From contig NZ_JBFRXN010000002.1 in assembly GCF_040947875.1 (NCBI RefSeq), positions 124,001 to 188,000 of the forward strand: 64,000 bases of DNA. The letters run 5' to 3'. The DNA is from Pseudomonas sp. MYb118 (GTDB lineage Bacteria; Pseudomonadota; Gammaproteobacteria; Pseudomonadales; Pseudomonadaceae). Position 1 is the stretch's first letter. Every line of letters begins with the position of its first letter. Below the pieces are notes generated by a model that had not been told where the DNA came from, searched no databases, and saw nothing but the letters and a program-made list of their open reading frames with translations. Below are positions 10,202 through 30,473 of this stretch, in pieces. A program made the translations under genes and the position numbers.

Positions 10202-11227
10202 TCAGTTGAAACCGCTGGTGGAAATGAAATCGACGTCGGTCTTGGGTTCGCCACGCATCAGCAGTTCAATCACCTGATTGAGCGTGCGCCCTTCGAACAG
10301 GATGGCGTGCAGCCCGGCGACCAGCGGCATGTACACCCCCACTTCCTGGGCCTTCGCCTTGAGCACTTTGAGGGTGTTCACGCCTTCGGCGACTTCGCCC
10401 AGGCGCGTCACGGCTTCATCCAGGCTCAAGCCCTGACCGAGGGCGAACCCGACCTGATAGTTGCGACTCTTGGGCGAGGAACAGGTGACGATCAGGTCAC
10501 CGACGCCAGCCAGCCCGAGGAAGGTCATCGGGTTGGCCCCCTGATTCACGGCAAAACGGGTCATTTCCGCGAGGGCCCGGGTGATCAGCATGCTCTTGGT
10601 GTTTTCGCCCATGCCCAAAGCCACCGCCATGCCGGCGATGATCGCGTAGACGTTTTTCAGTGCCCCGCCCAGTTCCACGCCAAAACGGTCGGCGCTGGCG
10701 TACACACGGAAAGTACGGCCATGCAGAGCGGCCTGGACCTTCTGGCAGAGTTCTTCGTCTTCGCTGGCGACCACGGTGGCGGTCAACGCATGCTCGGCGA
10801 CTTCACGGGCCAGGTTGGGCCCGGACAGCACGCCGATGCGCGCCTGCGGAGCGATCTCTTCGAGGATCTCGCTCATCAGTTTGAAGGTGTGGGCTTCGAT
10901 ACCTTTGGTCAGGCTCACCAGCATCTTGCCGCTCAGCAGCTGCGCGTGGGGGGCGAGCACCGAACGCAACGCGCTGGACGGCAGCGCGACGAAGCACAGC
11001 TCACTGCCCTGCAGCGTGGCCAGAAGGTCGGTGGTCGGCTCCACGGCCGCCAGCACCTTGATGCCCTTGAGGTAGCGCGGGTTCTCGCGATTGACCGCAA
11101 TGGCCTTGGCCTGCTCGGGGTCACGCATCCACAGACGGACCTGATGTCCGTTCTCGGCCAGCAGGTTAGCCACGGCGGTACCAAAACTTCCGCCTCCCAG
11201 GACCGCAATCGGGCGCTGTTCAGTCAT
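10202..11227 (-). CDS. gpsA: Glycerol-3-phosphate dehydrogenase [NAD(P)+]
   Basis: A 341-residue GpsA, which reduces dihydroxyacetone phosphate to sn-glycerol 3-phosphate for phospholipid synthesis. It has the N-terminal Rossmann signature [15 protein letters not shown], the conserved LTKGIE and GPNLAREV segments, the catalytic-lysine region [16 protein letters not shown], and the C-terminal [13 protein letters not shown] block. ATG 11227 is chosen two codons inside the open frame. It is divergent from the TonB receptor operon. Confidence 0.95.
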
Positions 11228-11424
11228 ATGCAATCCGTTAATCCATACCAGTGGCGATGCCCGGCATTATACGGAGCGGCCCAGTGACGGACAGCCCCCG
11301 CGTCAATTACCGGCACTTGTCAGAAGAAGACCAATAATTGCGAGGAAAATGCGGTCATCGTGACTGGAAAAGTCGATCGTCTCGGTTAACATGCGCGCCA
11401 GTGATTCGCTATCAAGGATGTGTC

Positions 11425-13548
11425 GTGTCGTTTGGCCCTGTTTCATCTCGTTCGCCCCTGGTCCTGGCCTTGCTCTTCAGCCCGCCGCTGCTGGCCGAAG
11501 ACCTGTTCGCAGACAGCGAACCGCTGCCCCAGGTGTTGACCGCCACCCGCCTGAAACAGTCGCCGGCCGCTGTGCCCGGCAGCATGACGGTGATCGACAG
11601 CGAACTGATCAACAGCAGTGGCGCCCGCGACATCAGCGAATTGTTACGTCTGGTGCCGGGCATGATGGTCGGCAACATCACCGGCAATCAGCCCACGGTG
11701 AATTACCACGGCACCAACGCCAGCGACGCGCGGCGCCTGCAAGTGCTGATTGACGGCCGCTCGGTGTACCGCGCCGGCCTGGCCACGGTGGACTGGAGCG
11801 ATATCCCGGTGGCCATGGAAGACATCGAGCGCATCGAGGTGTTCCGCGGCCCGAATACCGTCAGCTATGGCGCCAATGCGCTGATGGCGGTGGTCAACAT
11901 CATCACCCGCAACCCGGCTGACAGCCTCGGCACGCGCCTGAAAGTCACCCGCGGCCAGCGCGGTATCGACGACTTCTACGCCAGCCAGGGCGTGGGCTGG
12001 GACAGCGGCGACCTGCGCCTGTCGGTGTCCGGCCAGCAGGATGATGGCTTCGATTCCGACCGTCGCGGTGCCGATTACCGCGACAGTCGCCGGCTGAACC
12101 GGATCAATCTGGCGATCAGCCAGGTACTCGACGAGTGGCAAAGCCTGGATTGGCAATTCAACGCCAAGGAAGGCAGTAATCAGCGGCCTTACACCTACCG
12201 CCCGGTGTTTTCGGGAATTACTGCTGCCGGTAACAACTCTGACGTCAATGCCAAGGATTACGCCGGCTCCCTGCGCTGGAACCTCGACATCAGTCCCGAG
12301 CACAGCCTTTATATCCAGGGTTCGGCCCAGCATTGGGACCGCCAGCAGACGTGGCGCGCCTGCGACGCCGAGGTTTCGTTCAGTCCCGAACTGGCCGAAC
12401 TCTGGCAGCTCAACCCGAACTACACCGAACGCCTGGCACGCAACATGCCGCGCTACCTGGGTGCCGGCGCACCGGCCGGAACCGCGGCGGAACAGGCCCT
12501 GGCCAACAATGTGCTGGACCAGTGGCGCGCCGGTGCCGGGCAAACCCTGTGCGGGGATATCGACCAGAGCATCCGCGAGTCGCGCTACGACCTCGAACTG
12601 CAGGACACCCTCAGCCTGTCCGACAGCCTGCGGCTGGTCAGTGGCGTGAACTATCGTTACGACCGGGCCGATTCCGAGACGTATTTCAATGGCAAGTTCG
12701 ATGACACCACCTGGCGCACTTTCGGCCAGCTCGAGTGGCGCGCCACCGAGCACTGGCTGTTACAGGGCGGCGCCATGTTCGAGGACACCCGGCTGACAGG
12801 CAGTTCGCTGACGCCGCGAATGGCGGTCAACTACCTGATCAACCCGCGTCACGGCCTGCGCGCGGTGTATTCGGAAGCGATCCGTTCGCCGGACATGTTC
12901 GAGAACAACGTCAACTGGAGCTACCGGGTGACCAACCTGCAGCCCGCGGCCTACGGCCAAGGCAGCGCCCGCTATTTCGTCAGGACCCGCGGCCCCGGCG
13001 ACCTCGACAAGGAACGCATGCGCTCGCGGGAACTGGGTTACAACGGCTTTTTCGTCGATTGGGGACTGGCGGTGGACGTGAAGGTGTTCCACGACGAGAT
13101 CACCGGCATGATCAGCGAGCCTCTGCGCAACAATCAGTACATCGCCAGCAACGCCAACAGCTCGCGCTTCTCCGGCGCGGAAACCCAGATCGACTGGCGC
13201 CTGAGCAGTGCCGATCGGTTGCGCCTGACCTACGCCTACGTCGATGCCCAGGCGAGCAACCCGCTCGATGCCTGGCAGACGGCGCGCAACAGTGGCTCTG
13301 CCGGCTGGCTGCGCAACTGGGGCCAGGGCTGGAACAGCGCGCTCTTCTATTATGGTGACGACGCGCTCAACGGCTATCGTTTCGAACGGGTCGACACACG
13401 CATCGCCAAACGCATCCGGCTGGGCAAGGCCAGCCTGGAACTGGCCGGCGTGCTCCAGCAACGCCTCGATCACCAGCCCACCACCTTCGTCGACAACCGC
13501 TATGACCAGCGCCGGGTGATGTACTTCAGCGCTGAGCTGGTGTTCTGA
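11425..13548 (+). CDS. TonB-dependent outer-membrane receptor
   Basis: A 707-residue receptor. The signal peptide covers residues 1-24 (PPLLA|ED), with a TonB-box-like VLTATR at about 37-42. The plug domain spans about 45-160 (RVEVFRGP-type motif at IERIEVFRGPNTVSYGANA). A long beta-barrel ends in aromatic F (YFSAELVF), as outer-membrane barrels do. GTG 11425 is chosen because AAGGA lies about 8 bases upstream and the signal peptide begins there. No N-terminal signalling domain is seen. The next gene starts at the base after the stop codon, so receptor, binding protein and kinase are one operon. The ligand is unknown, and I see no Fur box upstream. Confidence 0.88.
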   Translation: MSFGPVSSRSPLVLALLFSPPLLAEDLFADSEPLPQVLTATRLKQSPAAVPGSMTVIDSELINSSGARDISELLRLVPGMMVGNITGNQPTVNYHGTNASDARRLQVLIDGRSVYRAGLATVDWSDIPVAMEDIERIEVFRGPNTVSYGANALMAVVNIITRNPADSLGTRLKVTRGQRGIDDFYASQGVGWDSGDLRLSVSGQQDDGFDSDRRGADYRDSRRLNRINLAISQVLDEWQSLDWQFNAKEGSNQRPYTYRPVFSGITAAGNNSDVNAKDYAGSLRWNLDISPEHSLYIQGSAQHWDRQQTWRACDAEVSFSPELAELWQLNPNYTERLARNMPRYLGAGAPAGTAAEQALANNVLDQWRAGAGQTLCGDIDQSIRESRYDLELQDTLSLSDSLRLVSGVNYRYDRADSETYFNGKFDDTTWRTFGQLEWRATEHWLLQGGAMFEDTRLTGSSLTPRMAVNYLINPRHGLRAVYSEAIRSPDMFENNVNWSYRVTNLQPAAYGQGSARYFVRTRGPGDLDKERMRSRELGYNGFFVDWGLAVDVKVFHDEITGMISEPLRNNQYIASNANSSRFSGAETQIDWRLSSADRLRLTYAYVDAQASNPLDAWQTARNSGSAGWLRNWGQGWNSALFYYGDDALNGYRFERVDTRIAKRIRLGKASLELAGVLQQRLDHQPTTFVDNRYDQRRVMYFSAELVF

Positions 13549-14481
13549 ATGAACTCGCGCCTGTCCCGCAAGACCTCACCCCCTCGCCGCCTGCTCGCCG
13601 GATTGTACCTGGTGCTGGTCGGCTGGCTGGCGAGCCTGTCGGCCGGTGCCGAAGACATTGTGCTCACCGGCGCCGACGACAGCCCCGGCGTTCACGCGTT
13701 TGCCACGGCCCTTGGTGAACTGCGCCCCGGCGACACCGTACGTTTTCAACCGCTGGCCAGTCTGCCGGCACCGAGCCAGTTACCCGCCAGGACCCGCCTG
13801 ATCCTGCTGGACCTGCCGAGTCTCGACTGGCGCCTGCAGGACACCCAGGGCCCGGCGACGTTGGTGCTGCGCATCAGCCGCCTGCAAGCCCGGCAGCGCC
13901 TGGGCACTACGTTGCCCGCACGCTTGAGCCTGCTGTGGAGCGATCCGCCGCCGCAACGGCAATTGCAGCTGACCCGCGCCCTGCTGCCTCAAGCCCGACG
14001 GGTGGGCGTGCTGTATGACCAGCACAGCGAATTTCTCCTCGGCGAGTTGCGTCAAACCGCGGATGCGCTCGGCCTGCAAATCATCAGCGAGCGCTGGGAC
14101 AACATCCATGACAGCCGCCCGCTACAGAGCCTGCTGAAAAAAAGCGACGTGTTGTTGGGTCTTGATGACCCGGACCTGTACAACCCCAAGACCGCGAAAA
14201 ACCTGCTGCTCAGCAGCTACGCGCGACAAACTGCACTGATCGGCCCCAACGCGGCATTCGTCAAGGCCGGCAGCCTCGCCACCAGTTACTCCGACCAGAA
14301 CGATTGGCTGGCCATACTCGATGAACTGCTCGACCGCCCCCCGGCCACCTGGCCACGCGCGCATTACGCCGAACACTTCAAAGTCCTGAGCAACCCGCAA
14401 GTGGCTCGTTCATTGGGGATTGAACAGATCGACGAAGCGCTGGTCGCAACACAGTTGGCCGCAGGAGAAAGCCGCCCATGA
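13549..14481 (+). CDS. Orphan ABC-type periplasmic substrate-binding protein
   Basis: A 310-residue exported protein with a signal peptide (cleavage near SAGA|ED, residue 34). Two lobes follow: one includes ARLSLLWSDPPPQRQ (about 125-140) and the other VLLGLDDPDLYNPKTAKNLL (about 203-222) with IGPNAAFVKAGSLATSYS. This is the COG2984-like binding-protein pattern. No ABC permease or ATPase is nearby. Its position between a receptor and a hybrid kinase suggests it presents a ligand to the kinase rather than to a transporter; that is inference. The stop overlaps the kinase start (ATGA). Confidence 0.78.
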   Translation: MNSRLSRKTSPPRRLLAGLYLVLVGWLASLSAGAEDIVLTGADDSPGVHAFATALGELRPGDTVRFQPLASLPAPSQLPARTRLILLDLPSLDWRLQDTQGPATLVLRISRLQARQRLGTTLPARLSLLWSDPPPQRQLQLTRALLPQARRVGVLYDQHSEFLLGELRQTADALGLQIISERWDNIHDSRPLQSLLKKSDVLLGLDDPDLYNPKTAKNLLLSSYARQTALIGPNAAFVKAGSLATSYSDQNDWLAILDELLDRPPATWPRAHYAEHFKVLSNPQVARSLGIEQIDEALVATQLAAGESRP

Positions 14482-16379
14482 CTTTCCGTCGTCGTTGGGA
14501 CATCAACACCCGCACGCAAATCATCAGCCTCGGCCCGGCCCTGCTGCTGACCTTGCTGTTGATCAGTTTCTTCACCTTCGTGCGGATCCAGGATTTGCGC
14601 CAGGAGCTCAACCACACCGGCCAACTGATTGCCAACCAACTGGCACCGGCGGCGGAATACGGGGTGATTTCCGGCAACAACGAAGTGCTCGACAGCTTGC
14701 TCAAGGCCACCCTGGCCACGCCGAACGTGCGTTTTCTGGAAATCCAGGACAGTGCCAACCGGATTCTGGTGTACGTCGAACACCCGGCGGAAAGCCATAA
14801 CCGCTCGCAACAGGTCGAAGTGTTCCAGGCACCGGTGCGGCTGCAACGGATCGCGCTGCAAAGCGATTTTTTCCAGGGCAGCAAAGTCGCCAGTACCCTA
14901 CCCGGCGAGGATTACCTGGGCCGGGTGATCGTAGGCCTGTCCAGCGACGCCTTCAGCAAGCGCCAGCAGGAAATCCTGTTCAAGGCCGGCATCCTTGCGC
15001 TGTTTGCCCTGTTGTTCACCTACCTGATCGCCCGGCGCCTGGCCGGCAGCCTGTCACAGCCGATCCGCGATATCGGCAATGCGGTCAAGGCGATCCAGAG
15101 CGGCGACTACACCACCCCGCTGCCGATTGTCGACGACGCCGAACTCGGCGCCCTGTCGCAGCACATCAATAACCTGGCCGCCGGCCTCGAACAGGCCAGT
15201 CGCGAACAGCATCAGGCCATGGCGCAACTGATCCAGACCCGCGAAGAGGCGGAAAAGGCCAACAACGCCAAATCCGATTTCCTGGCGATGATGAGCCACG
15301 AGTTGCGCACACCGATGAATGGCGTGCTCGGCATGTTGCAGTTGCTGGAAACCACCGAGATGACCGAAGAGCAGGTCGATTACGCGGCGCTGGCCTCGGA
15401 GTCCACCGAGCACCTGCTCAAAGTCATCAACGACATTCTCGACTTCTCGCGCATCGAACGCTCGGAACTGGAACTGGAGCACATTGCGTTCAACCTGGCG
15501 GACCTGATCGGCAGTTGCGCCCAGTCGTTCCAGCACAGCGCGGCGCAACGCGGGCTGCACCTGGCGTTGCAGATTCCGCAAGACATGCAGGCTTTGCAGG
15601 TTCAGGGCGATCCGACGCGCATCCGCCAGATCCTGGTGAACCTGGTCGGCAACGCGCTGAAGTTCACCGAGCAGGGCCGCGTCAGCATCGAAGCGCAATG
15701 GCAATCGCTGGATCACGAACTGCTGTGGTTCACCTGCACCGTGCGCGACAGCGGCATCGGCATTCCGGCCGAAAGCCTGGAGTCGATGTTCAACGCCTTC
15801 CAGCAGGCCGACAGTTCGATTTCCCGCCGCTACGGTGGCACCGGCCTGGGCCTGCCGATCGCCCGCACACTGGCCGAACGCATGGGCGGCACGTTGCGCG
15901 CCCAGAGTGAAGAAGGTCGCGGCTCGGCGTTCACCCTGGAAATCCCGCTGGCGCGCTACAAACAGACGCTACCGGTGCTGACGCCCCGCGCCCCCGCCGG
16001 CGCGGGTGACGGCGCCGGTCACAATGTGCTGCTGGTGGAGGACAACCCGGTCAACCAGACCGTCATCGAAGCCATGCTGCGCAGCCTGGGGTTCACCGTG
16101 AGCGTCGCCACGGACGGCGCCCAGGCGATACGCAGCGCCGAAAGCCTGATTTTCGATGCGATCCTGATGGACTGCCGGTTGCCGATCATCGACGGCTACG
16201 AGGCCACCCGACAAATTCGCCAACTGCCCGGCTGCAGTGATCTGCCGATCATCGCGCTGACGGCCAACGCCTTGCAGGGCGACCGGGAAACCTGCCTGTC
16301 GGCGGGAATGAACGATTACCTGGCCAAGCCGTTCAAACGTACGGATTTGCAGCAGATTCTCCAACGATGGGTGCAGTAG
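14478..16379 (+). CDS. Hybrid sensor histidine kinase (PA1611-like)
   Basis: A 633-residue inner-membrane hybrid kinase. TM1 is about 16-38, a periplasmic domain about 39-163, TM2 about 165-187, then HAMP to about 240. The H-box has H274 (FLAMMSHELRTPMNG) and the N-box is NLVGNALKF (about 388-396). Motifs DSGIGIP and GGTGLGLPIA follow, then a receiver with D565 (ILMDCRLPIIDG). There is no Hpt domain, so phosphate must go to a separate Hpt protein. Domain order and its place immediately upstream of fabA match P. aeruginosa PA1611, a reported RetS-interacting kinase that signals towards HptB. Orthology is inferred from context and architecture. Confidence 0.88.
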   Translation: MTFRRRWDINTRTQIISLGPALLLTLLLISFFTFVRIQDLRQELNHTGQLIANQLAPAAEYGVISGNNEVLDSLLKATLATPNVRFLEIQDSANRILVYVEHPAESHNRSQQVEVFQAPVRLQRIALQSDFFQGSKVASTLPGEDYLGRVIVGLSSDAFSKRQQEILFKAGILALFALLFTYLIARRLAGSLSQPIRDIGNAVKAIQSGDYTTPLPIVDDAELGALSQHINNLAAGLEQASREQHQAMAQLIQTREEAEKANNAKSDFLAMMSHELRTPMNGVLGMLQLLETTEMTEEQVDYAALASESTEHLLKVINDILDFSRIERSELELEHIAFNLADLIGSCAQSFQHSAAQRGLHLALQIPQDMQALQVQGDPTRIRQILVNLVGNALKFTEQGRVSIEAQWQSLDHELLWFTCTVRDSGIGIPAESLESMFNAFQQADSSISRRYGGTGLGLPIARTLAERMGGTLRAQSEEGRGSAFTLEIPLARYKQTLPVLTPRAPAGAGDGAGHNVLLVEDNPVNQTVIEAMLRSLGFTVSVATDGAQAIRSAESLIFDAILMDCRLPIIDGYEATRQIRQLPGCSDLPIIALTANALQGDRETCLSAGMNDYLAKPFKRTDLQQILQRWVQ

Positions 16380-16626: not shown

Positions 16627-17142
16627 ATGACCAAACAAAACGCCTTTACCCGGGAAGACCTGCTGCGCTGCAGTCGCGGTGAGCTGTTCGGCCCAGGTAA
16701 CGCGCAACTGCCCGCCCCGAACATGCTGATGGTTGATCGCATCACCCTGATCAGCGAGGAAGGCGGCAAGTACGGCAAAGGTGAATTGGTCGCCGAGCTG
16801 GATATCAATCCGGACCTGTGGTTCTTCGCCTGTCACTTCGAAGGTGACCCGGTGATGCCAGGTTGCCTGGGCCTCGACGCCATGTGGCAGCTGGTCGGTT
16901 TCTTCCTCGGCTGGCAAGGTTTGCCGGGCCGCGGCCGCGCCCTCGGTTCGGGCGAAGTGAAGTTCTTCGGTCAGGTCCTGCCGACCGCCAAGAAAGTCAC
17001 CTATAACATTCATATCAAACGCGTCCTCAAGGGCAAGCTGAACCTGGCCATCGCCGATGGTTCGGTGACTGTCGACGGTCGCGAGATCTACACCGCCGAA
17101 GGCCTCCGGGTCGGCGTTTTCACCTCCACTGACAACTTCTAA
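16627..17142 (+). CDS. fabA: 3-hydroxydecanoyl-ACP dehydratase/isomerase
   Basis: A 171-residue FabA, which dehydrates 3-hydroxydecanoyl-ACP and isomerises trans-2- to cis-3-decenoyl-ACP, the entry step to unsaturated fatty acids. The catalytic His is in [19 protein letters not shown], and the Asp helix in the same motif is intact. The length matches the family exactly. It is in an operon with fabB, 11 bases downstream. Confidence 0.97.
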
Positions 17143-22923: not shown

Positions 22924-24276
22924 CTAGCTCGCTTCAAATAACGCCATGGCCTCGACATGTGCCGTCTGAGGAAACATATCGAGAATCCCGGCACGTTTTA
23001 ACCGGTAGCCCTGCTTGATCAATTCGACCGTATCGCGCGCCAGAGTTGCAGGGTTGCACGACACGTACACCAACCGTTCGGCGCCTAGCGTCCTGAGCTT
23101 GCGCACCACCTCGATAGCGCCGTCACGCGGTGGGTCCAAGAGTACCGCACAAAAGCCTTCGCGCGCCCATTCGGCATTGGTCAAAGGCTGGGATAAATCG
23201 GCCTGAAAAAACGTCGCATTATGCAGATTGTTACTCGCGGCGTTCGCGGCAGCCCGATCGACCATCGCCTGTACACCCTCGACCGCCACCACTTCACGAA
23301 CGGCCTGGGCCAGCGGCAAGGCGAAGTTGCCCAAACCACAGAATAGATCCAGAACACGTTCATCCGCTGTCGGCTGCAACCACTCCAGCGCCTGGGCAAC
23401 CATCGCCTCGTTGACCGCCGCGTTGACCTGGACGAAGTCACCTGGCCGGTAGGCCAGTTCCAGGTCCCATTGTTCCAGGCGATAGCCCAACGACTGATCG
23501 GCGTCTACCGGTTGCGGCTCGCCCTCGCCATGCAGCCACAATTGCGCTTCATGGAAGGTGCAGAAATCCTTGAGGATGGTCATGTCAGCGTCGGACAACG
23601 GCGCCATGTGCCGCAGCAACACCGCCAGTTTCGAACCGCTGAACAGTTCCACGTGACCCAAGGCCTGCGGCTTGCTCAAGCGTCGCAACATTTCCGGCAG
23701 GCGCGTCATGATCGGCTGCAAGGGCTGTACCAGCACCGGGCATTCGTCGATGGCGACGATGTCCTGGCTGCCGGCCGCACGAAAACCGACTTCGAGGTTT
23801 TTCGCCTTGGCGTCCCAGCGCACCGCCACGCGGGCGCGACGACGGTAGGCGAACTCGGCACCGGTCAACGGCGCCGCCCACTCTTCAGGCTCGACGCCTG
23901 CGACCCTGGACAATTGCTCGGCGAGCATGCGCTGTTTCAGGGCAAGCTGTTCGTCGTGGGGCAGATGCTGGACACTGCAACCACCGCAACGCCCGGCATG
24001 CTTGCACGGTGCCGGACGACGCAGGTCGCTTGCGCTGAACACCCGCTCAGTGCGCGCCTCGACCACTTTGCCGTGGGCACCCAGCACCCGCGCCTCGACT
24101 TCCTCGCCAGCCAGGGCGCCGAGGACGAACCAGGTACGGCCTTCGAAAAACGCTATGCCACGACCGTCATTGGACAGGCGCTCGATGGTCAAGCGCTGCT
24201 TTTTGCCGGTCGGGATTTGCGCGGCCTTGCTACCGCCGGTGGGCTGGAAGCGCAGGCCTCTCTCATGTTTGGCCAT
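22924..24276 (-). CDS. rlmD: 23S rRNA (uracil-1939-C5)-methyltransferase RlmD
   Basis: A 450-residue RlmD (RumA) that methylates U1939 of 23S rRNA using SAM. It has an N-terminal TRAM domain (about 22-80), iron-sulfur ligands in [10 protein letters not shown] plus a later Cys in AIDECPV, a SAM-binding region [15 protein letters not shown], and a catalytic Cys in [13 protein letters not shown]. The start overlaps the cysM stop by one base (TGATG). Length is normal. Confidence 0.94.
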
Positions 24277-25178
24277 CAGTTGGGCGCGTCGAATATGCCG
24301 GTCGACAGGTAACGGTCGCCACGGTCGCAGATGATCGCGACGATCACCGCGTTCTCAACTTCTTTGGACAGGCGCAGCATGCCGGCCACGGCACCGCCCG
24401 AGGACACGCCACAGAAGATGCCTTCTTCGCGAGCCAGGCGACGGGTCACGTCTTCGGCTTCGCTTTGTGCCATGTCGATGATGCGATCCACGCGATCGGC
24501 CTGGTAGATCTTCGGCAGGTATTCCTGCGGCCAGCGGCGGATGCCCGGGATCGACGCGCCTTCCATTGGCTGCAAGCCGAGGATCTGGATGTTTTCGTTC
24601 TGTTCTTTCAGGTAACGCGACGTGCCCATGATGGTACCGGTGGTGCCCATCGAGCTGACGAAGTGGGTGATGGTGCCCTGGGTCTGGCGCCAGATTTCCG
24701 GGCCGGTGGTGGTGTAGTGCGCCTCGGGGTTGTCGCCGTTGGCGAACTGGTCCAGCACCTTGCCATGGCCTTCGGCTTCCATACGCTGGGCGAGATCGCG
24801 GGCACCTTCCATGCCTTCTTCCTGGGTGACCAGGATCAGCTCGGCACCATAGGCGGTCATGGCCGCCTTGCGTTCGGCGCTGGAGTTGTCCGGCATGATC
24901 AGGATCATCTTGTAGCCCTTGATCGCGGCGGCCATCGCCAGGGCGATCCCGGTGTTGCCCGAGGTCGCTTCGATCAACGTATCGCCGGCGTGGATCTGCC
25001 CGCGCAACTCGGCACGGGTGATCATCGACAGCGCCGGACGGTCCTTGACCGAACCTGCCGGGTTGTTCCCTTCAAGCTTGAGCAATAGGGTGTTGCTGGT
25101 GGCGCCAGGCAGGCGCTGCAAACGGACCAGCGGAGTGTTGCCGACGCAATCGGCGATGGTTGGGTACTGCAAGGTCAT
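24276..25178 (-). CDS. cysM: Cysteine synthase B (O-acetylserine sulfhydrylase)
   Basis: A 300-residue PLP enzyme making cysteine from O-acetylserine and sulfide or thiosulfate. The PLP lysine is in [11 protein letters not shown]. The phosphate-binding SGNTGIALA, substrate-loop and [14 protein letters not shown] motifs are present, as is the C-terminal [12 protein letters not shown]. The start [14 protein letters not shown] is chosen over an upstream in-frame ATG at 25244. It is the first gene of cysM-rlmD-relA. Confidence 0.94.
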
Positions 25179-25290
25179 GGCGTATTCGCAATCCAGACTG
25201 CGGGGGCGCCTATCATACCGGCAAACGTGGGCAGGCCATATCACGCAAAGTGTGGTGCTTATGGCTTATGGGAATAAGCGATTGTAAAAC

Positions 25291-25422
25291 CTGTGGGAGC
25301 GAGCCTGCTCGCGAGGGGTGTCAGGAAAACGGTGGCGCTTTCAGGCTCATCGCGAGCAAGCTCGCTCCTACAGCGGGTGGGTGGCGTTCACGAAATTTGT
25401 GGGAGCGGGCTTGCTCGCGATG
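25291..25422. repeat. REP cluster overlapping the end of a kinase gene
   Basis: Three REPs: about 25292-25314, 25349-25372 (inverted) and 25399-25422. The last two overlap the 3' end of the sensor kinase gene, encoding its final residues (VIASKPAPT) and its TAG stop (from CTGTAGGAGCGAGC read leftward). Confidence 0.9.
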
Positions 25423-26792
25423 ACGCCATCAGCAGCAACCTCGCCCTCGGCTAAAAGGCGCATGTTCAGGCGCAACCCGCTGCCGGTGTTCTCGGCCCAC
25501 AGTTGCCCGCCCTGGCGTTGTACCGCGTTGCGGGCAATGCTCAGGCCCAGGCCGAAGCCGCCGTTGCCCGGGCGCGAGCCGTCGAGGCGGATGAAGGGGG
25601 AGAAGATGCGTTCCAGGTCCTGTTCGGCCACCCCGCCGCCCTCGTCTTCCAGCCACAGATGCCAGAAGTTACCGTCGCGCCGGCCATCCAGGCGCACGAT
25701 GCCGCCCGTCGGCGAGTGGCGGATGGCGTTGCGCAGGATGTTTTCCAGGGCCTGGGCCAGGGTGTTGAGGTTGCCACGCACCCAGCAGGAAGAGTCCACC
25801 AGGCACTGCAGGCGACCGGGTGGGCAAGCACTTTCATAGCAGGCGTTTTCCGTGAGCATTTCCCACAGCGCCTGGACCTGGATCGCTTCGTCAGGCAACG
25901 GCGCGCGCTCGGTGTCGAGCCAGGCCAGTTGCAGGGTGTCTTCGACCAGGCGCTGCATGCCGTCGACTTCGCGGCCGATGCGCTCGCGCAGTTGCGCAAG
26001 GTTCTGCTCGCCTTCACTGGCCACGCGCAGGCGGCTCAAGGGCGTGCGCAGTTCATGGGACAGGTCGCGCAGCAGTTGCTGTTGCAGGGCCACGGTACTT
26101 TGCAGGCGTTCGGACATGTGATCGAAGGCACGCCCCAACTCGCCCAGTTCATCGCTGCGGTTGGTGGTACGACGCGACAGACGCACGCCCAATTGATCGG
26201 CACGCCAGGCGTTGGCCTGCTCGCGCAATTGATTAAGCGGCACCACCAGCAGCCGATACAGGCCCACGCACAACAGCAGCGTGAACAAGCCGGGGATGAC
26301 GCCATTGGTGATCACGCGCCAGAACATCTGGTAGCGCCCGGGCTGGAAGCGCTTGGGCAGTTCGATCACCAGGCTGCCGGCCGAAGGATCGCCGGGGAAC
26401 GGCACGCGCATCCAGGGCAGGTTGTTCTTGTGGATCGGCCAGTCGAGGCCGCGCAGGAAGGTCAGGCGTTCGATCTGTCGATCGGTCAGCGGCTGGTTGC
26501 TCAACGACTGCAAATCACCGCTGATCACGCCGGACCATCCGCGTTCGCGCTTGCGCATGCCCTCAAGCCAGGCATCGACGCCATCGCTCTGGCCTTGCAG
26601 CCACGCCTGCTCGGCTTCGGCGGCGTAACGCGTCAGGGTGCCGCGGGCTTCGTCCGAAAGAAACTGGTTGCGCTGCTCCATGTAGCGGCCCCAGGACCAG
26701 CTCAGCCAGATCATCAGCAGACAGAACGCCACCAGCAGGCAGGCCAGTTTCCAGAACAATGAATGGCGCCCCGGCAGATCAGCCCACTTCAT
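25368..26792 (-). CDS. Sensor histidine kinase, PirS-like, with REP-encoded tail
   Basis: A 474-residue inner-membrane kinase. TM1 is about 13-35, a periplasmic domain about 36-163, TM2 about 164-185, then HAMP. The H-box has H246 (LRDLSHELRTPLSRLRV), followed by ALENILRNAIRHS and EDEGGGV, then GFGLGLSIA. Next to gacS in pseudomonads this position holds a PirS-type kinase (enterobactin uptake in P. aeruginosa); the assignment is by context. The last ~20 residues (after LRLNMRLL) are encoded by REP sequence and are unlikely to be ancestral. Start and regulator stop overlap by 14 bases. Confidence 0.85.
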   Translation of the reverse strand: MKWADLPGRHSLFWKLACLLVAFCLLMIWLSWSWGRYMEQRNQFLSDEARGTLTRYAAEAEQAWLQGQSDGVDAWLEGMRKRERGWSGVISGDLQSLSNQPLTDRQIERLTFLRGLDWPIHKNNLPWMRVPFPGDPSAGSLVIELPKRFQPGRYQMFWRVITNGVIPGLFTLLLCVGLYRLLVVPLNQLREQANAWRADQLGVRLSRRTTNRSDELGELGRAFDHMSERLQSTVALQQQLLRDLSHELRTPLSRLRVASEGEQNLAQLRERIGREVDGMQRLVEDTLQLAWLDTERAPLPDEAIQVQALWEMLTENACYESACPPGRLQCLVDSSCWVRGNLNTLAQALENILRNAIRHSPTGGIVRLDGRRDGNFWHLWLEDEGGGVAEQDLERIFSPFIRLDGSRPGNGGFGLGLSIARNAVQRQGGQLWAENTGSGLRLNMRLLAEGEVAADGVIASKPAPTNFVNATHPL

Positions 26793-27504
26793 GGTCGGCA
26801 CTCAACACGTAGCCCTTGCCCCAGACCGTGCGCACTTCACGCTCGGTGTAGCCGATGGCCTTGAGCTTGCGGCGGATCTGGCTGATGTGCATGTCCAGGC
26901 TGCGGTCGTGAGCCGCATAACCGCGCTGCAATACATGCTGATAAAGGAAGGCCTTGCTCAACACTTCATCGCCGTTGCGATTGAGGGTGTCGAGCAGGCG
27001 ATATTCACTGCGGGTCAGGCCGGCCGCCTGCTCGCCGAAGAACACTTCGAAGCATTCCTCGTCGAACCGCAGACTGTCCACCGCCGCCTGCACCACCGGG
27101 GCGACCGCCGGCCGCCGGTCCAGCGCGACACGGCGCAGGATCGCTTCGATGCGTACGTGCAATTCGGCCATGCTGAAAGGCTTGGGCAGATAATCGTCGG
27201 CGCCGAGGCGAAAGCCACTGATGCGATCCGCCTCGGCGCCCAGGGCCGACATCAGCAGCACCGGCGTGGAATGGCTCTGGCGCAATTCGGTCAGCACCGA
27301 CAGGCCATTGAGGCCTGGCAAGAGAATGTCCATCAACACCACGTCGAAGGTGTTCTGGCGGGCCATCGCCAGGCCTTCCTGGCCGTTCTGGCACCAGGTG
27401 ACCTGAAAGCCGCTGCGGCCCAGTTGCTCATGCACATAGGCACCGAGCACCAGGTCGTCTTCGATGGAGAGGATTCGGGGATGGCCAACAGTGCTGGGAG
27501 TCAT
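26779..27504 (-). CDS. OmpR-family response regulator, PirR-like
   Basis: A 241-residue response regulator. The receiver domain has SIEDD near the N-terminus, phosphoacceptor D59 (VVLMDILLPGLNG) and K in LPKPFSM. The C-terminal winged helix ends RRKLKAIGYTEREVRTVWGKGYVLS. ATG 27504 fits the family length. It is divergent from gacS, with an iron-box-like sequence just upstream. It is the regulator for the overlapping kinase gene. Confidence 0.87.
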   Translation of the reverse strand: MTPSTVGHPRILSIEDDLVLGAYVHEQLGRSGFQVTWCQNGQEGLAMARQNTFDVVLMDILLPGLNGLSVLTELRQSHSTPVLLMSALGAEADRISGFRLGADDYLPKPFSMAELHVRIEAILRRVALDRRPAVAPVVQAAVDSLRFDEECFEVFFGEQAAGLTRSEYRLLDTLNRNGDEVLSKAFLYQHVLQRGYAAHDRSLDMHISQIRRKLKAIGYTEREVRTVWGKGYVLSADHEVG

Positions 27505-27512
27505 GACTATCT

Positions 27513-27531
27513 GCAAATAATTCTCAGTTGG
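27513..27531 (-). promoter_or_regulatory. Weak Fur-box-like sequence
   Basis: Read leftward, CCAACTGAGAATTATTTGC matches the 19-base Fur consensus at about 11 positions, with a good GAGAATTATT core. It lies 9-27 bases upstream of the PirR-like regulator. It supports iron control, but the match is borderline. Confidence 0.35.
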
Positions 27532-27719
27532 CAATTATTAAAGATTGCCTCGCCAGGGGCAAGCCAAGGTTGGATCGTGGCACTCGTGTGTCGAGCGGCC
27601 CGACGAATGGCGACATCAATTTTACGAAGATTGCCCGCAAGCAAATCGCTACACTGCGCAGGTGGCGCGTACCGGATGTGCGCGCAGGTTCCTCAAATGG
27701 CTGGATGCAGGAGAGTTGC

Positions 27720-30473
27720 GTGCTCAAGAAACTGGGAATTAAAGGCCGCGTGCTGCTGTTGACCTTGCTTCCGACCAGCCTGATGGCCCTGGTGCTGGGC
27801 GGCTATTTCACCTGGATGCAGCAGTCGGACCTGCAAACCCAACTCATGCAGCGCGGCGAAATGATCGCCGAACAGCTCGCTCCCCTCGTCGCCCCGGCCA
27901 TGGGCAACAAGGACACCGACCTGCTGGAACGCATCGCCACCCAGTCCCTGGAAACCACCGACGTGCGCGCGGTGACCTTCCTCGCCCCCGACCGCACGCC
28001 GCTGGCCCATGCCGGCCCGACCATGCTCAATCAGGCGCCCTTTGGCAGTGGCTCGCAAATGTTGCGACGCAGCGGCAACGATGCCACCCGCTATCTGCTG
28101 CCGGTGTTCGGCAAACACCGCAACCTGGCCGGTGAAGTGATTCCCGAGGAATCCGAGCGCATGCTCGGCTGGGTCGAACTCGAACTGTCACACAACGGCA
28201 TGCTGTTGCGCGGCTATCGCAGCCTGTTCGCCAGCCTGCTGCTGATCGGCGCCGGGCTGGCCGGTGCGGCGTTGCTGGCCTTGCGCATGGGCCGCACGAT
28301 CAACCGTCCGCTGAGCCAGATCCAGCAGGCAGTAGCGCAACTCAAGGACGGTCATCTGGAAACCCGCCTGCCGCCGCTGGGCAGTCAGGAGCTGGATGAA
28401 CTGGCGTCCGGCATCAATCGTATGGCCGGCACCCTGCAGAATGCTCAGGAAGAATTGCAGCACAGCATCGACCAGGCCACCGAAGACGTGCGGCAGAATC
28501 TGGAAACCATCGAAATCCAGAACATCGAGCTGGACCTGGCGCGCAAGGAGGCCCTGGAGGCGAGCCGGATCAAATCCGAGTTCCTGGCCAACATGAGCCA
28601 TGAAATCCGCACACCGCTCAACGGCATCCTCGGCTTCACCCACCTGTTGCAGAAAAGCGAGCTGACCCCGCGCCAGCTCGATTACCTGGGCACCATCGAA
28701 AAGTCTGCCGACAGCCTGCTGGGGATCATCAACGAGATCCTCGACTTCTCGAAAATCGAGGCCGGCAAGCTGGTGCTCGACCATATTCCGTTCAATCTGC
28801 GCGACCTGCTCCAGGACACCCTGACCATCCTCGCCCCCGCCGCCCACGCCAAGCAACTGGAACTGGTGAGCCTGGTGTATCGCGATACGCCGCTGTCGCT
28901 GGTGGGCGACCCGCTGCGACTCAAGCAGATCCTCACCAACCTGGTGAGCAACGCGATCAAGTTCACCCGCGAAGGCACCATCGTCGCCCGCGCCATGCTC
29001 GAAGACGAACACGAAGACAGCGTGCAACTGCGTATCAGCATTCAGGACACCGGCATCGGCCTGTCCAACGAAGACGTGCGTGCGTTGTTCCAGGCGTTCA
29101 GCCAGGCTGACAATTCGCTTTCTCGCCAGCCCGGCGGCACCGGCCTGGGCCTGGTGATTTCCAAGCGCCTGATCGAACAGATGGGCGGCGAGATCGGCGT
29201 CGACAGCACGCCGGGGGAAGGTTCGGAATTCTGGATCAGCCTGAGCCTGCCGAAAACCCGTGACGACGCCGAAGACCTGCCTGCCGCGCCACTGCTCGGA
29301 CGTCGGGTCGCCGTCCTGGAAAACCACGAGCTGGCGCGCCAGGCACTGCAACATCAACTGGAGGATTGTGGCTTGGAGGTCACGCCGTTCAACACCCTGG
29401 AACGGTTGACCAACGGCGTGATGGGCGCACACCAGACCGATCAGGCCATCGACCTTGCCGTGCTCGGGATCACCAGCAACGACCTGCCGCCCGAGCGCCT
29501 CAACCAACACATCTGGGACCTCGAACACCTGGGCTGCAAGGTCCTGGTGCTGTGCCCGACCACCGAACAGACGCTGTTTCACCTGTCGGTCCCCAACCCC
29601 CACAGCCAGCTTCAGGCCAAACCGGCCTGCACCCGCAAGCTGCGCCGGTCCCTGTCCGACCTTGTCAACCCGCGCCAGCAGCGCAGCGAGCCAGGCGAGC
29701 CGGTGAGTAGCCGTGCGCCGAAAGTGCTGTGCGTGGACGATAACCCGGCCAACCTGCTGCTGGTGCAAACCCTGCTCGAAGACCTGGGCGCCAAGGTGCT
29801 CGCGGTGGAAAGCGGCTACGCGGCGGTGAAGGCCGTGCAGAGCGAAACCTTCGACCTGGTATTGATGGACGTGCAGATGCCCGGCATGGACGGGCGCCAG
29901 AGCACTGAGAGTATCCGCCAGTGGGAAAGTGAACGGCATAGCACGCCGCTGCCGATCGTGGCGCTCACGGCCCACGCCATGGCCAACGAAAAGCGCGCAC
30001 TGCTGCAAAGCGGCATGGACGATTACCTGACCAAGCCGATCAGTGAGCGGCAACTGGCCCAGGTGGTCTTGAAGTGGACCGGCCTGGCCTTGCGTAATCA
30101 AGGGCCGGAACGTACCCACGACAGCCACGGCAACGGCCAGGAGCTGCAGGTGCTGGACGCTGAAGAAGGCCTGCGCCTGGCCGCCGGCAAGGAAGATCTG
30201 GCGGCGGACATGCTGGCCATGCTGCTGGCGTCGCTGGAAGCCGACCGTGAAGCCATCCGCATCGCCCGGGAAACCCATGATCACACCGCGTTGATCGAAC
30301 GGGTGCATCGCCTGCATGGCGCGACCCGCTACTGCGGCGTGCCGCAACTGCGCGCCGCCTGCCAACGCAGCGAAACCCTGCTCAAGCAGCAGGACCCGAA
30401 AGCCTCCGTCGCGCTGGAAGACCTCGACCGGGCGATCAATCGGCTGGCGGCCCATGCGCGGATCAATGCGTGA
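27720..30473 (+). CDS. gacS: Global sensor kinase GacS
   Basis: A 917-residue tripartite hybrid kinase that phosphorylates GacA and so controls RsmY/RsmZ small RNAs, secondary metabolism, biofilm and exoproducts. It has TM1 (about 8-30), a periplasmic sensor region, TM2 (about 165-188) and HAMP. Transmitter H294 lies in [15 protein letters not shown], with ATP motifs NLVSNAIKF and [10 protein letters not shown]. Receiver D717 lies in [13 protein letters not shown] and Hpt H866 in [15 protein letters not shown] 27720 is preceded by AGGAGAG. The open frame extends upstream to 27528 but that part is not GacS-like. All three phosphorelay residues are intact. Confidence 0.96.

Follow-up and report, generated by a model that had tools for sequence, protein, structure and literature searches.

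Three closely packed genes between gpsA and fabA raise the question of whether a TonB-dependent receptor (TBDR), a periplasmic substrate-binding protein (SBP) and a hybrid kinase form one sensing unit, and how such a unit might be connected to the Gac network. In the window analysed here (the whole 64-kb stretch of DNA), open reading frame calls and Pfam searches gave the order gpsA (10202..11233, minus strand), TBDR, SBP, hybrid kinase and fabA (16627..17142, plus strand). The TBDR gene (11425..13548, plus strand; GTG start, 707 aa) encodes a Plug domain and a TonB_dep_Rec barrel, the ATG of the SBP gene (13549..14481, plus strand) is the first base past the TBDR stop with a spacing of zero, and the kinase gene (14478..16379, plus strand; ATG start) overlaps the SBP stop by the four bases ATGA, as the initial annotation had described. 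The longest TBDR frame begins at TTG 11338, and the GTG at 11425 was preferred because a conserved element, TCGGTTAACATG (11382..11393, plus strand), sits upstream of it. With at most two mismatches, this element lies between gpsA and the first gene at 53 of 60 genus loci; it is kept whichever gene comes first (TBDR, SBP or kinase) and may have a promoter-like role 5' of the operon. A consensus promoter scan found none (1.0 expected), and Rfam gave no hits on the 64-kb window. The immediate neighbours of the SBP gene are the TBDR and kinase genes, then gpsA and fabA, with no permease or ATPase gene among them, and gacS (27720..30473, plus strand) begins 11.3 kb downstream of the kinase gene; the annotation was correct on both points, having placed gacS 11 kb away.

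By Pfam, the kinase has the domain order sCache_4-HAMP-HisKA-HATPase_c-REC and ends with this single receiver (REC), which matches PA1611REC of Pseudomonas aeruginosa (PDB 7c1j) at 188 bits (5.2e-55); the 7c1j/7cfw sequence is the sole PDB sequence matching it at E ≤ 1e-30. Together with the domain order and the site between gpsA and fabA, this match supports the proposed PA1611-type kinase. A genome with a REC 96% identical to PA1611REC carries the TBDR, SBP and kinase genes between gpsA and fabA, and from gene order and number PA1613 is very likely the TBDR and PA1612 the SBP. Identity with GacS was ruled out, the kinase being without Hpt and gacS being a separate gene. Hydrophobic 19-residue windows begin at residues 13-22 and 165-172 and delimit a periplasmic domain of ~130 residues, close to the ~125 claimed earlier. 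The Cache domain within it (residues 36-165; 14583..14972, plus strand; predicted model pLDDT 87.3) is the proposed docking domain for the SBP, and the Cache-fold matches of its model include a LapD orthologue (4u64), CitA and the LuxQ periplasmic domain.

The SBP scores 15.6 bits against PF04392 (ABC_sub_bind), below the curated cut-off of 25.9, and is regarded as a sub-threshold ABC_sub_bind/TrpX relative. All 69 members of a wider SBP alignment match ABC_sub_bind at E ≤ 0.01, and the wider family profile retrieves 3lkv, 3lft and 6hni (E 5.5e-24 to 1.5e-17), of which 3lft is presumably a tryptophan-binding protein; from this fold family, the SBP would be expected to bind a ligand. Its own genome holds one match to the window SBP, and a PF04392 search of that genome returned none at E ≤ 0.001. 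Judged by eye, the SBP N-terminus is of Sec type without a lipobox cysteine, and that of the TBDR is TonB-box-like. Pfam at E ≤ 0.1 found Plug and barrel only on the TBDR, with no STN signalling domain. The NCBIfam models closest to the window TBDR are TOL_0244 and a B12-receptor type, neither anywhere near its cut-off. Against the TOL_0244 model (NCBIfam NF053590), the window TBDR reaches 158.7 bits (equivalog cut-off 645) and eight module TBDRs from elsewhere 185.8-247.1 bits, NF053590 being the sole model at E ≤ 1e-50 for each of the eight. TOL_0244 is described as an alkane-induced receptor, and the likeness is too weak for naming the cargo. A B12 receptor was ruled out (TIGR01779, 124 bits against a cut-off of 599.7).

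Among 149 sampled genus genomes, all 112 SBP matches abut a kinase match and 101 of 102 TBDR matches abut an SBP, an adjacency that is beyond chance. The SBP is present wherever a genome has a TBDR hit at E ≤ 1e-90; of the 148 kinase-bearing genomes, 38 are without the SBP and 49 without the TBDR at that threshold. The unit is nested, not indivisible: separability in most genomes, named in the initial annotation as a refuting outcome, is not seen, but the kinase occurs alone in the 38. Three genus loci carry TBDR remnants next to SBP and kinase genes that are both intact, and purifying selection on the SBP persists where the TBDR has been lost. The suggestion that the receptor provides the first step is weakly supported, given the 49 genomes without it, and the remnants together with the selection on the SBP argue against its being an obligatory part.

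The TBDR-SBP-sensor order recurs across Beta- and Gammaproteobacteria. A sensor protein comes next at 66 of 71 class SBP loci and a TBDR precedes the SBP at 53; in a named genome scan, which overlaps the class set in some contigs, the figures are 79 and 69 of 80 SBP loci. The sensor half (sCache_4-HAMP) is constant and the output half varies among hybrid kinase, GGDEF and GGDEF-EAL, a swap also seen by Pfam in ten chosen proteins; across the swapped outputs, sCache_4 is present in 61/62 sensors and ABC_sub_bind in 69/69 SBPs, and the module kinases L135, L138 and L144 carry Hpt. Markers were sought at the first 40 of the 69 class loci and in 20 of the 69 family genomes that gave a match; cysM/rlmD/acpS-era markers turned up at 23 of those 40, and gpsA and fabA flanks at 20/20 fetched family loci. 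The module is not confined to the PA1611 position and elsewhere sits directly on GacS/BarA orthologues and GGDEF proteins. For the named scan, a first alignment gave no conserved stretch, and AlphaFold alignments comprised 68/80 SBPs and 61/79 sensors. No natural SBP-kinase fusion was recognised among the open frames searched; the long frames of L143, L149 and L166 are apparently extended reading frames, and the 1064-aa frame of L171 could be a TBDR-SBP fusion.

Sensor sequence and length vary with the presence of the SBP. The motif APAxEYGVxSGN (residues 56-67; 14643..14678, plus strand) lies at the end of the long N-terminal helix, and on new sequences E60-[YF]61-G66 occurred in 21/27 SBP-linked versus 2/18 SBP-less proteins. 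In the genus alignment, L127, D130 and F131 of the sensor major loop (14856..14870, plus strand) are found in 35, 34 and 35 of 35 SBP-bearing kinases versus 11, 11 and 5 of 39 SBP-less kinases, and a sensor length of 129-131 in 35/35 versus 13/39; in these counts L010 was left out (same genome as L058, both having entered a related tally), and G060, with an SBP remnant, was scored as SBP-less. The loop pattern is not general outside the genus. A strict [DE][FY] loop motif (38/65 with SBP, 2/31 without, yet 2/21 Pseudomonadaceae) was picked after alignment inspection and is unused as general evidence. At the 52 of 76 loci kept for divergence correlations, the divergence of the SBP correlates with that of the sensor (partial r 0.37, p 0.0005) and not with that of HAMP (partial r 0.02) once core and TBDR are controlled for; TBDR divergence, too, correlates with that of the sensor (partial r 0.35). 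At the sequence level, the proposed tie between binding protein and kinase sensor is well supported, by adjacency, by the output-domain swap, by a sensor motif and length that accompany the SBP, and by correlated divergence.

We consider it fairly probable that the three genes form one sensing unit running from receptor to SBP to the kinase sCache_4 domain and on to HptB and RetS outputs, with the input unit reused elsewhere; on this reading the SBP, probably loaded by the receptor, would be the input of such sCache_4 sensors, and E. coli BarA and Pseudomonas GacS would stem from ancestors that possessed it. Most likely, the TBDR would import into the periplasm a ligand that is scarce or large, and there the soluble SBP, with no transporter beside it, would bind it. 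Covariation suggests that the SBP could then dock on the sCache_4 domain at the EYGVxSGN tip of the long N-terminal helix and at the major loop, and docking would set kinase activity through HAMP. The phosphoryl group would exit via the receiver to HptB, and RetS binding would be a second output; phosphotransfer to HptB and RetS binding are published for PA1611, and by extension from that work the window kinase may signal to Gac/Rsm. Overall, the chain proposed in the initial annotation is partly supported. The accessible parts of the PA1611 literature treat the kinase without SBP or receptor and mention PA1612 in the context of fabAB transcription, with no function given. Gene order and domain architecture show the same input unit ahead of GacS/BarA-type kinases and c-di-GMP enzymes in other proteobacteria.

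Alternatively, receptor and SBP could be an uptake or scavenging route, with the kinase sensing the cargo directly and the operon merely coupling supply and sensing. For the GacS and BarA sensors, signalling is reported to work through pockets of their own. The Cache-domain model matches direct-binding Cache sensors well and the kinase persists in the 38 genomes without SBP, but permease and ATPase are absent among the immediate neighbours, the SBP is kept under selection after receptor loss, the sensor's motif and length vary with SBP presence, and SBP divergence follows the sensor rather than HAMP, so direct sensing seems unlikely. In YfiB-YfiR-YfiN, an outer-membrane anchor, an inhibitor and a sensor are laid out over three compartments, and the SBP could likewise bind no ligand and act as a negative regulator or envelope monitor keeping the sensor inactive, with the TBDR as its outer-membrane anchor. 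The alike layout, the occurrence of GGDEF outputs and the correlation of TBDR with sensor divergence agree with such a role; we judge it more unlikely still, as most of the length of the SBP family can be aligned with TrpX-type binding proteins, and the TBDR keeps its TonB-box-like N-terminus and has been lost from loci that retain the SBP. That common descent alone keeps the genes side by side, with a shared promoter before fabAB and no functional link, is highly improbable: the published co-transcription of PA1612-PA1611 into fabA and the single conserved element ahead of the whole unit fit it, but the gene order recurs at unrelated loci (cysM/rlmD/acpS-era; gpsA/fabA) with differing outputs.

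The preferred reading, receptor and SBP as input of an sCache_4 sensor, bears on GacS, whose signal in pseudomonads is described in the review PMC7695008 as long sought and unknown. With the window genome left out, 76 sampled class genomes have a GacS/BarA match (E ≤ 1e-110), and 44 of them carry an SBP family member; in 36 of the 42 among these that one SBP search retrieved, the SBP lies directly before that match. Among 62 class genomes that have an SBP as well as a GacS match, the best-scoring GacS gene immediately follows the SBP gene in 46. SBP-adjacent GacS is often at the cysM/rlmD locus, where the window gacS also lies; rlmD and cysM (22924..25244, minus strand; NCBIfam and marker search) flank the module in other genera. 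The window gacS, an SBP-less homologue of the kinase, has BarA as its best NCBIfam model (837 bits, below the cut-off of 890), and no SBP or TBDR was found beside it or E. coli BarA. In the tree, SBP-less GacS/BarA proteins branch from within SBP-linked ones, and they are mostly without the sensor motif common to the latter. SBP-less GacS as one clade was rejected (p-AU 0.0019; five changes on the best tree) in a test run without four module kinases on long branches and the six unrelated kinases; SBP-less stretches numbered 22, of which L221, L222, L225 and L232 are shortened by contig ends. Tentatively, with slightly less than even confidence, we suggest that TBDR-SBP was the ancestral GacS/BarA input and the Gac/Csr regulator at first a three-component system, sensing a receptor-imported ligand through a binding protein, that E. 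coli BarA and Pseudomonas GacS were orphaned and turned to direct sensing, and that in Pseudomonadaceae the original input survives on the paralogue PA1611, which still feeds Gac via RetS. The soluble SBP could be purified and screened for ligand, making the GacS signal question directly testable, and organisms with an SBP adjacent to GacS are the best place to start.

The module would represent a route from outer membrane to cytoplasm that is modular, has interchangeable outputs and does without a sigma/anti-sigma pair, and in it PA1612 and PA1613 gain a likely role. LuxP-LuxQ and TorT-TorS are pairs of binding protein and sensor kinase. As in these and BctC-BctE, a binding protein gene stands beside a sensor kinase gene, and as in the LuxPQ kind the kinase has a periplasmic sensor; the window unit differs by adding an outer-membrane receptor, an ABC_sub_bind-like SBP and an exchangeable kinase/GGDEF/EAL output. 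In NspS-MbaA, an orphan binding protein acts on a GGDEF-EAL protein, but the SBP family is another and there is no receptor gene. FecA-FecR-FecI signalling likewise starts from a TonB-dependent receptor, but no STN domain was found on the window receptor, and a soluble binding protein would relay the signal to a kinase. GacS/BarA is likewise an sCache_4-HAMP-kinase homologue, and the module sits on its orthologues in many genera; it carries a C-terminal Hpt after the receiver, unlike the window kinase with one REC and no Hpt. The Caulobacter Hmr pathway was judged a different system. A stand-alone 127-aa Hpt frame is present at C1:12407-12616.

The local finding of the initial annotation is real and conserved. 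ORF coordinates confirmed all three genes at the positions assigned to them: a TonB-dependent receptor (TBDR; 11425–13548) with Plug and barrel domains, a substrate-binding protein (SBP; 13549–14481), whose sole Pfam match, ABC_sub_bind, is below threshold, and a hybrid kinase (14478–16379) of sCache_4-HAMP-HisKA-HATPase_c-REC architecture. The tight spacing described for them also holds, with a TBDR/SBP gap of 0 bases and an ATGA shared by the SBP and the kinase. The unit lies between the divergent gpsA and fabA. The proposed likeness of the kinase to PA1611 is supported by its receiver, for which PA1611REC of P. aeruginosa (188 bits) is the sole PDB sequence at E ≤ 1e-30, and gacS indeed lies 11.3 kb from the module, with cysM and rlmD. 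The minus-strand interval 25368–27534, between cysM and gacS, encodes a kinase (best models CpxA) and a response regulator of the OmpR type (best model CreB), divergent from gacS. In genome G000, a 127-aa stand-alone Hpt frame (C1:12407–12616) is a candidate HptB, and a 605-aa frame with a receiver at C1:10625–10948 lies near it.

Among 149 genomes of the genus, the kinase N-terminus was present in 148, the SBP in 110 (E ≤ 1e-10), and the TBDR in 99 (E ≤ 1e-90), and their occurrence is nested: the TBDR implies the SBP, which implies the kinase. The conservation of the unit expected across Pseudomonas holds for adjacency, with the SBP immediately 5' of the kinase match in 112/112 SBP matches (73 in the same register as the window's junction) and the TBDR immediately 5' of the SBP match in 101/102 TBDR matches (the remaining one on a different contig), but the unit is not indivisible, as the kinase occurs without an SBP match in 38 genomes. 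The gpsA match lies 137–352 nt from the kinase in 37 of these 38, and the remaining genome (G093) has 532 nt there, with an 81-aa frame resembling an SBP remnant. Another genome, G060, has an SBP-like frame of 137 aa and no more, and was scored as SBP-less in the sensor-length, residue, and distance comparisons. TBDR remnants were found next to an intact SBP and kinase at three loci (L058, L067, and L071). The SBP dN/dS was 0.23 and 0.25 in two pairs of TBDR-less genomes, 0.21 and 0.22 in two mixed pairs (TBDR-less vs TBDR-bearing), and 0.11–0.14 in three TBDR-bearing pairs; the SBP without a TBDR is still under selection, though relaxed, on few pairs whose genomes may not share one loss. On the genus kinase tree, the SBP state switches 7 times, with 5 of the switches forced. 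The element TCGGTTAACATG stands 5' of whichever gene leads the unit in 53/60 loci; therefore, the unit may be served by a single promoter region, whether or not its first two genes are present.

The wider context of the module is more interesting than the version in the initial annotation. The SBP profile matched 69/148 family genomes (10/19 genera) and 70/369 class genomes (57/272 genera). After a first reading of 60 loci, the analysis was extended to the 29 remaining class genomes matched by the profile and to 22 gacS loci lacking a match, and a wider profile recovered the SBP at 2 of these 22 loci thought to be SBP-less, giving 71 class loci. A sensor protein directly follows the SBP at 66/71 loci and a TBDR precedes it at 53/71, with some loci cut by contig ends. 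Of these 66 sensors, 61 match the kinase profile only, and five also have a GGDEF motif behind, which at L263 may belong to a different gene. At the other five loci, the kinase lies in front (L161 and L268), the locus is cut (L257), or no sensor was seen in the loci read (L255 and L262). Named genomes (Methylotenera, Undibacterium, Sulfuricella, Rhodoferax, Curvibacter, Limnohabitans, Rhodocyclus, and others) were also scanned and gave 80 loci, with the TBDR 5' in 69 and the same sensor half 3' in 79. This set is not independent of the class sample: its query was built from class loci, and at least five of its contigs are identical in length to class contigs (e.g., L299/L135 and L306/L242). 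The 79 sensors comprise 48 full kinases, 27 with a GGDEF motif, and four short proteins. Pfam identified sCache_4 in 61/62 sensor halves and ABC_sub_bind in 69/69 SBPs, and ten chosen downstream proteins all carry sCache_4, with outputs ranging over GacS-type kinases with Hpt, single-receiver kinases, GGDEF, and GGDEF-EAL. Thus, the SBP travels with the sensor, not with the output. The TBDR-SBP pairs at L307, L255, and L262 have no sensor gene behind; judged by eye, the genes that follow resemble those for PurL and a protein of the TrmO type. In the family genus g5 (L182–L187), an extra frame of ~370–590 aa separates the kinase from fabA.

The sensor itself differs with the presence of the SBP. 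Kinase residues 36–165, the periplasmic Cache domain, span 129–131 positions in 35/35 SBP-bearing and 13/39 SBP-less genus kinases; the Fisher test of this contrast disregards kinship, and an independent-pairs test on sensor length, with five pairs only, was not significant. The SBP-bearing genus kinases retain L127 (35/35 vs 11/39), D130 (34/35 vs 11/39), and F131 (35/35 vs 5/39) of the major loop. The E60-[YF]61-G66 motif occurred in 29/38 SBP-bearing vs 2/13 SBP-less sequences of the first class set, and in 21/27 vs 2/18 new sequences (Fisher p = 1.3e-5, uncorrected for kinship); L219, an SBP-less exception carrying the motif, shares its family (f136) with an SBP-bearing genome. Within the genus, the median periplasm/core distance ratio was 1.68 in SBP-bearing and 2.32 in SBP-less pairs, though HAMP was likewise faster. 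With core, HAMP, and TBDR controlled for, SBP distances track sensor distances (partial r = 0.37, p = 0.0005, n = 52); with core, sensor, and TBDR controlled for, they do not track HAMP distances (0.02, p = 0.42); TBDR distances also track the sensor (partial r = 0.35). The SBP may therefore dock on the sensor, with the receptor presumably delivering the ligand, and regulation would run from receptor through SBP to kinase, as first proposed. Sensors driven by SBPs are an established principle, with about ten reported kinase cases.

The module is also linked to GacS/BarA. With the window GacS as query, 62 of 69 other SBP-bearing class genomes gave a match at 1e-70 (7 gave none), and the best match lies immediately 3' of the SBP in 46/62. 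In the remaining 16, the match is in the gene behind the SBP with a late start in three (G512, G305, and G352, i.e., L252, L160, and L260), the kinase is ahead of the SBP in two (G346 and G343), and the best match is elsewhere in 11. The inverted order of these two, at L161 (G346) and on contig C9 of G343, is a GacS-like kinase followed by the SBP. Conversely, 76 class genomes (the window's own excluded) have a GacS match at 1e-110, and 42 of them have the SBP, or 44 with the wider profile. The genes cysM, rlmD, or acpS-pdxJ-recO-era lie near the module at 23 of the first 40 class loci, and gpsA and fabA at 20/20 fetched Pseudomonadaceae loci (the last four flank markers of the survey were named by eye); rlmD adjoins E. 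coli barA, as the window gacS lies near cysM/rlmD. The stretches scanned around 14 SBP-less GacS/BarA genes and 20 further ones yielded no SBP-like frame.

In a 75-row tree, the 13 SBP-less rows (window GacS, E. coli BarA, and other GacS) lie among SBP-linked kinases, which takes 5 changes of SBP state; starred branches force 3 of these. The PA1611 type forms one clade (support 99). A single clade of SBP-less GacS/BarA was rejected (p-AU = 0.0019). Because the gene order hardly varies among SBP-bearing loci, the SBP was more probably lost repeatedly than gained repeatedly, on a tree whose root is not firm and many of whose branches are weak; an SBP-linked ancestor of GacS/BarA may be postulated. 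In published accounts, GacS and BarA are portrayed as direct sensors, BarA reportedly answering to protonated acetic/formic acid and GacS having a basic pocket with an unknown ligand. Such accounts also report that PA1611 lifts the inhibition of GacS by RetS and hands phosphate to HptB, and that the PA1612-PA1611 operon runs on into fabA, whose regulation is unaltered by PA1611 deletion. In a search of open-licence full text, no paper was found on an SBP or receptor gene beside gacS/barA or on PA1612/PA1613 function. One genome, G591, has two GacS-like kinases of near-equal score (C19:79687–82347 and C24:48632–51268), one behind an SBP and the other not, resembling the GacS/PA1611 pair of Pseudomonadaceae.
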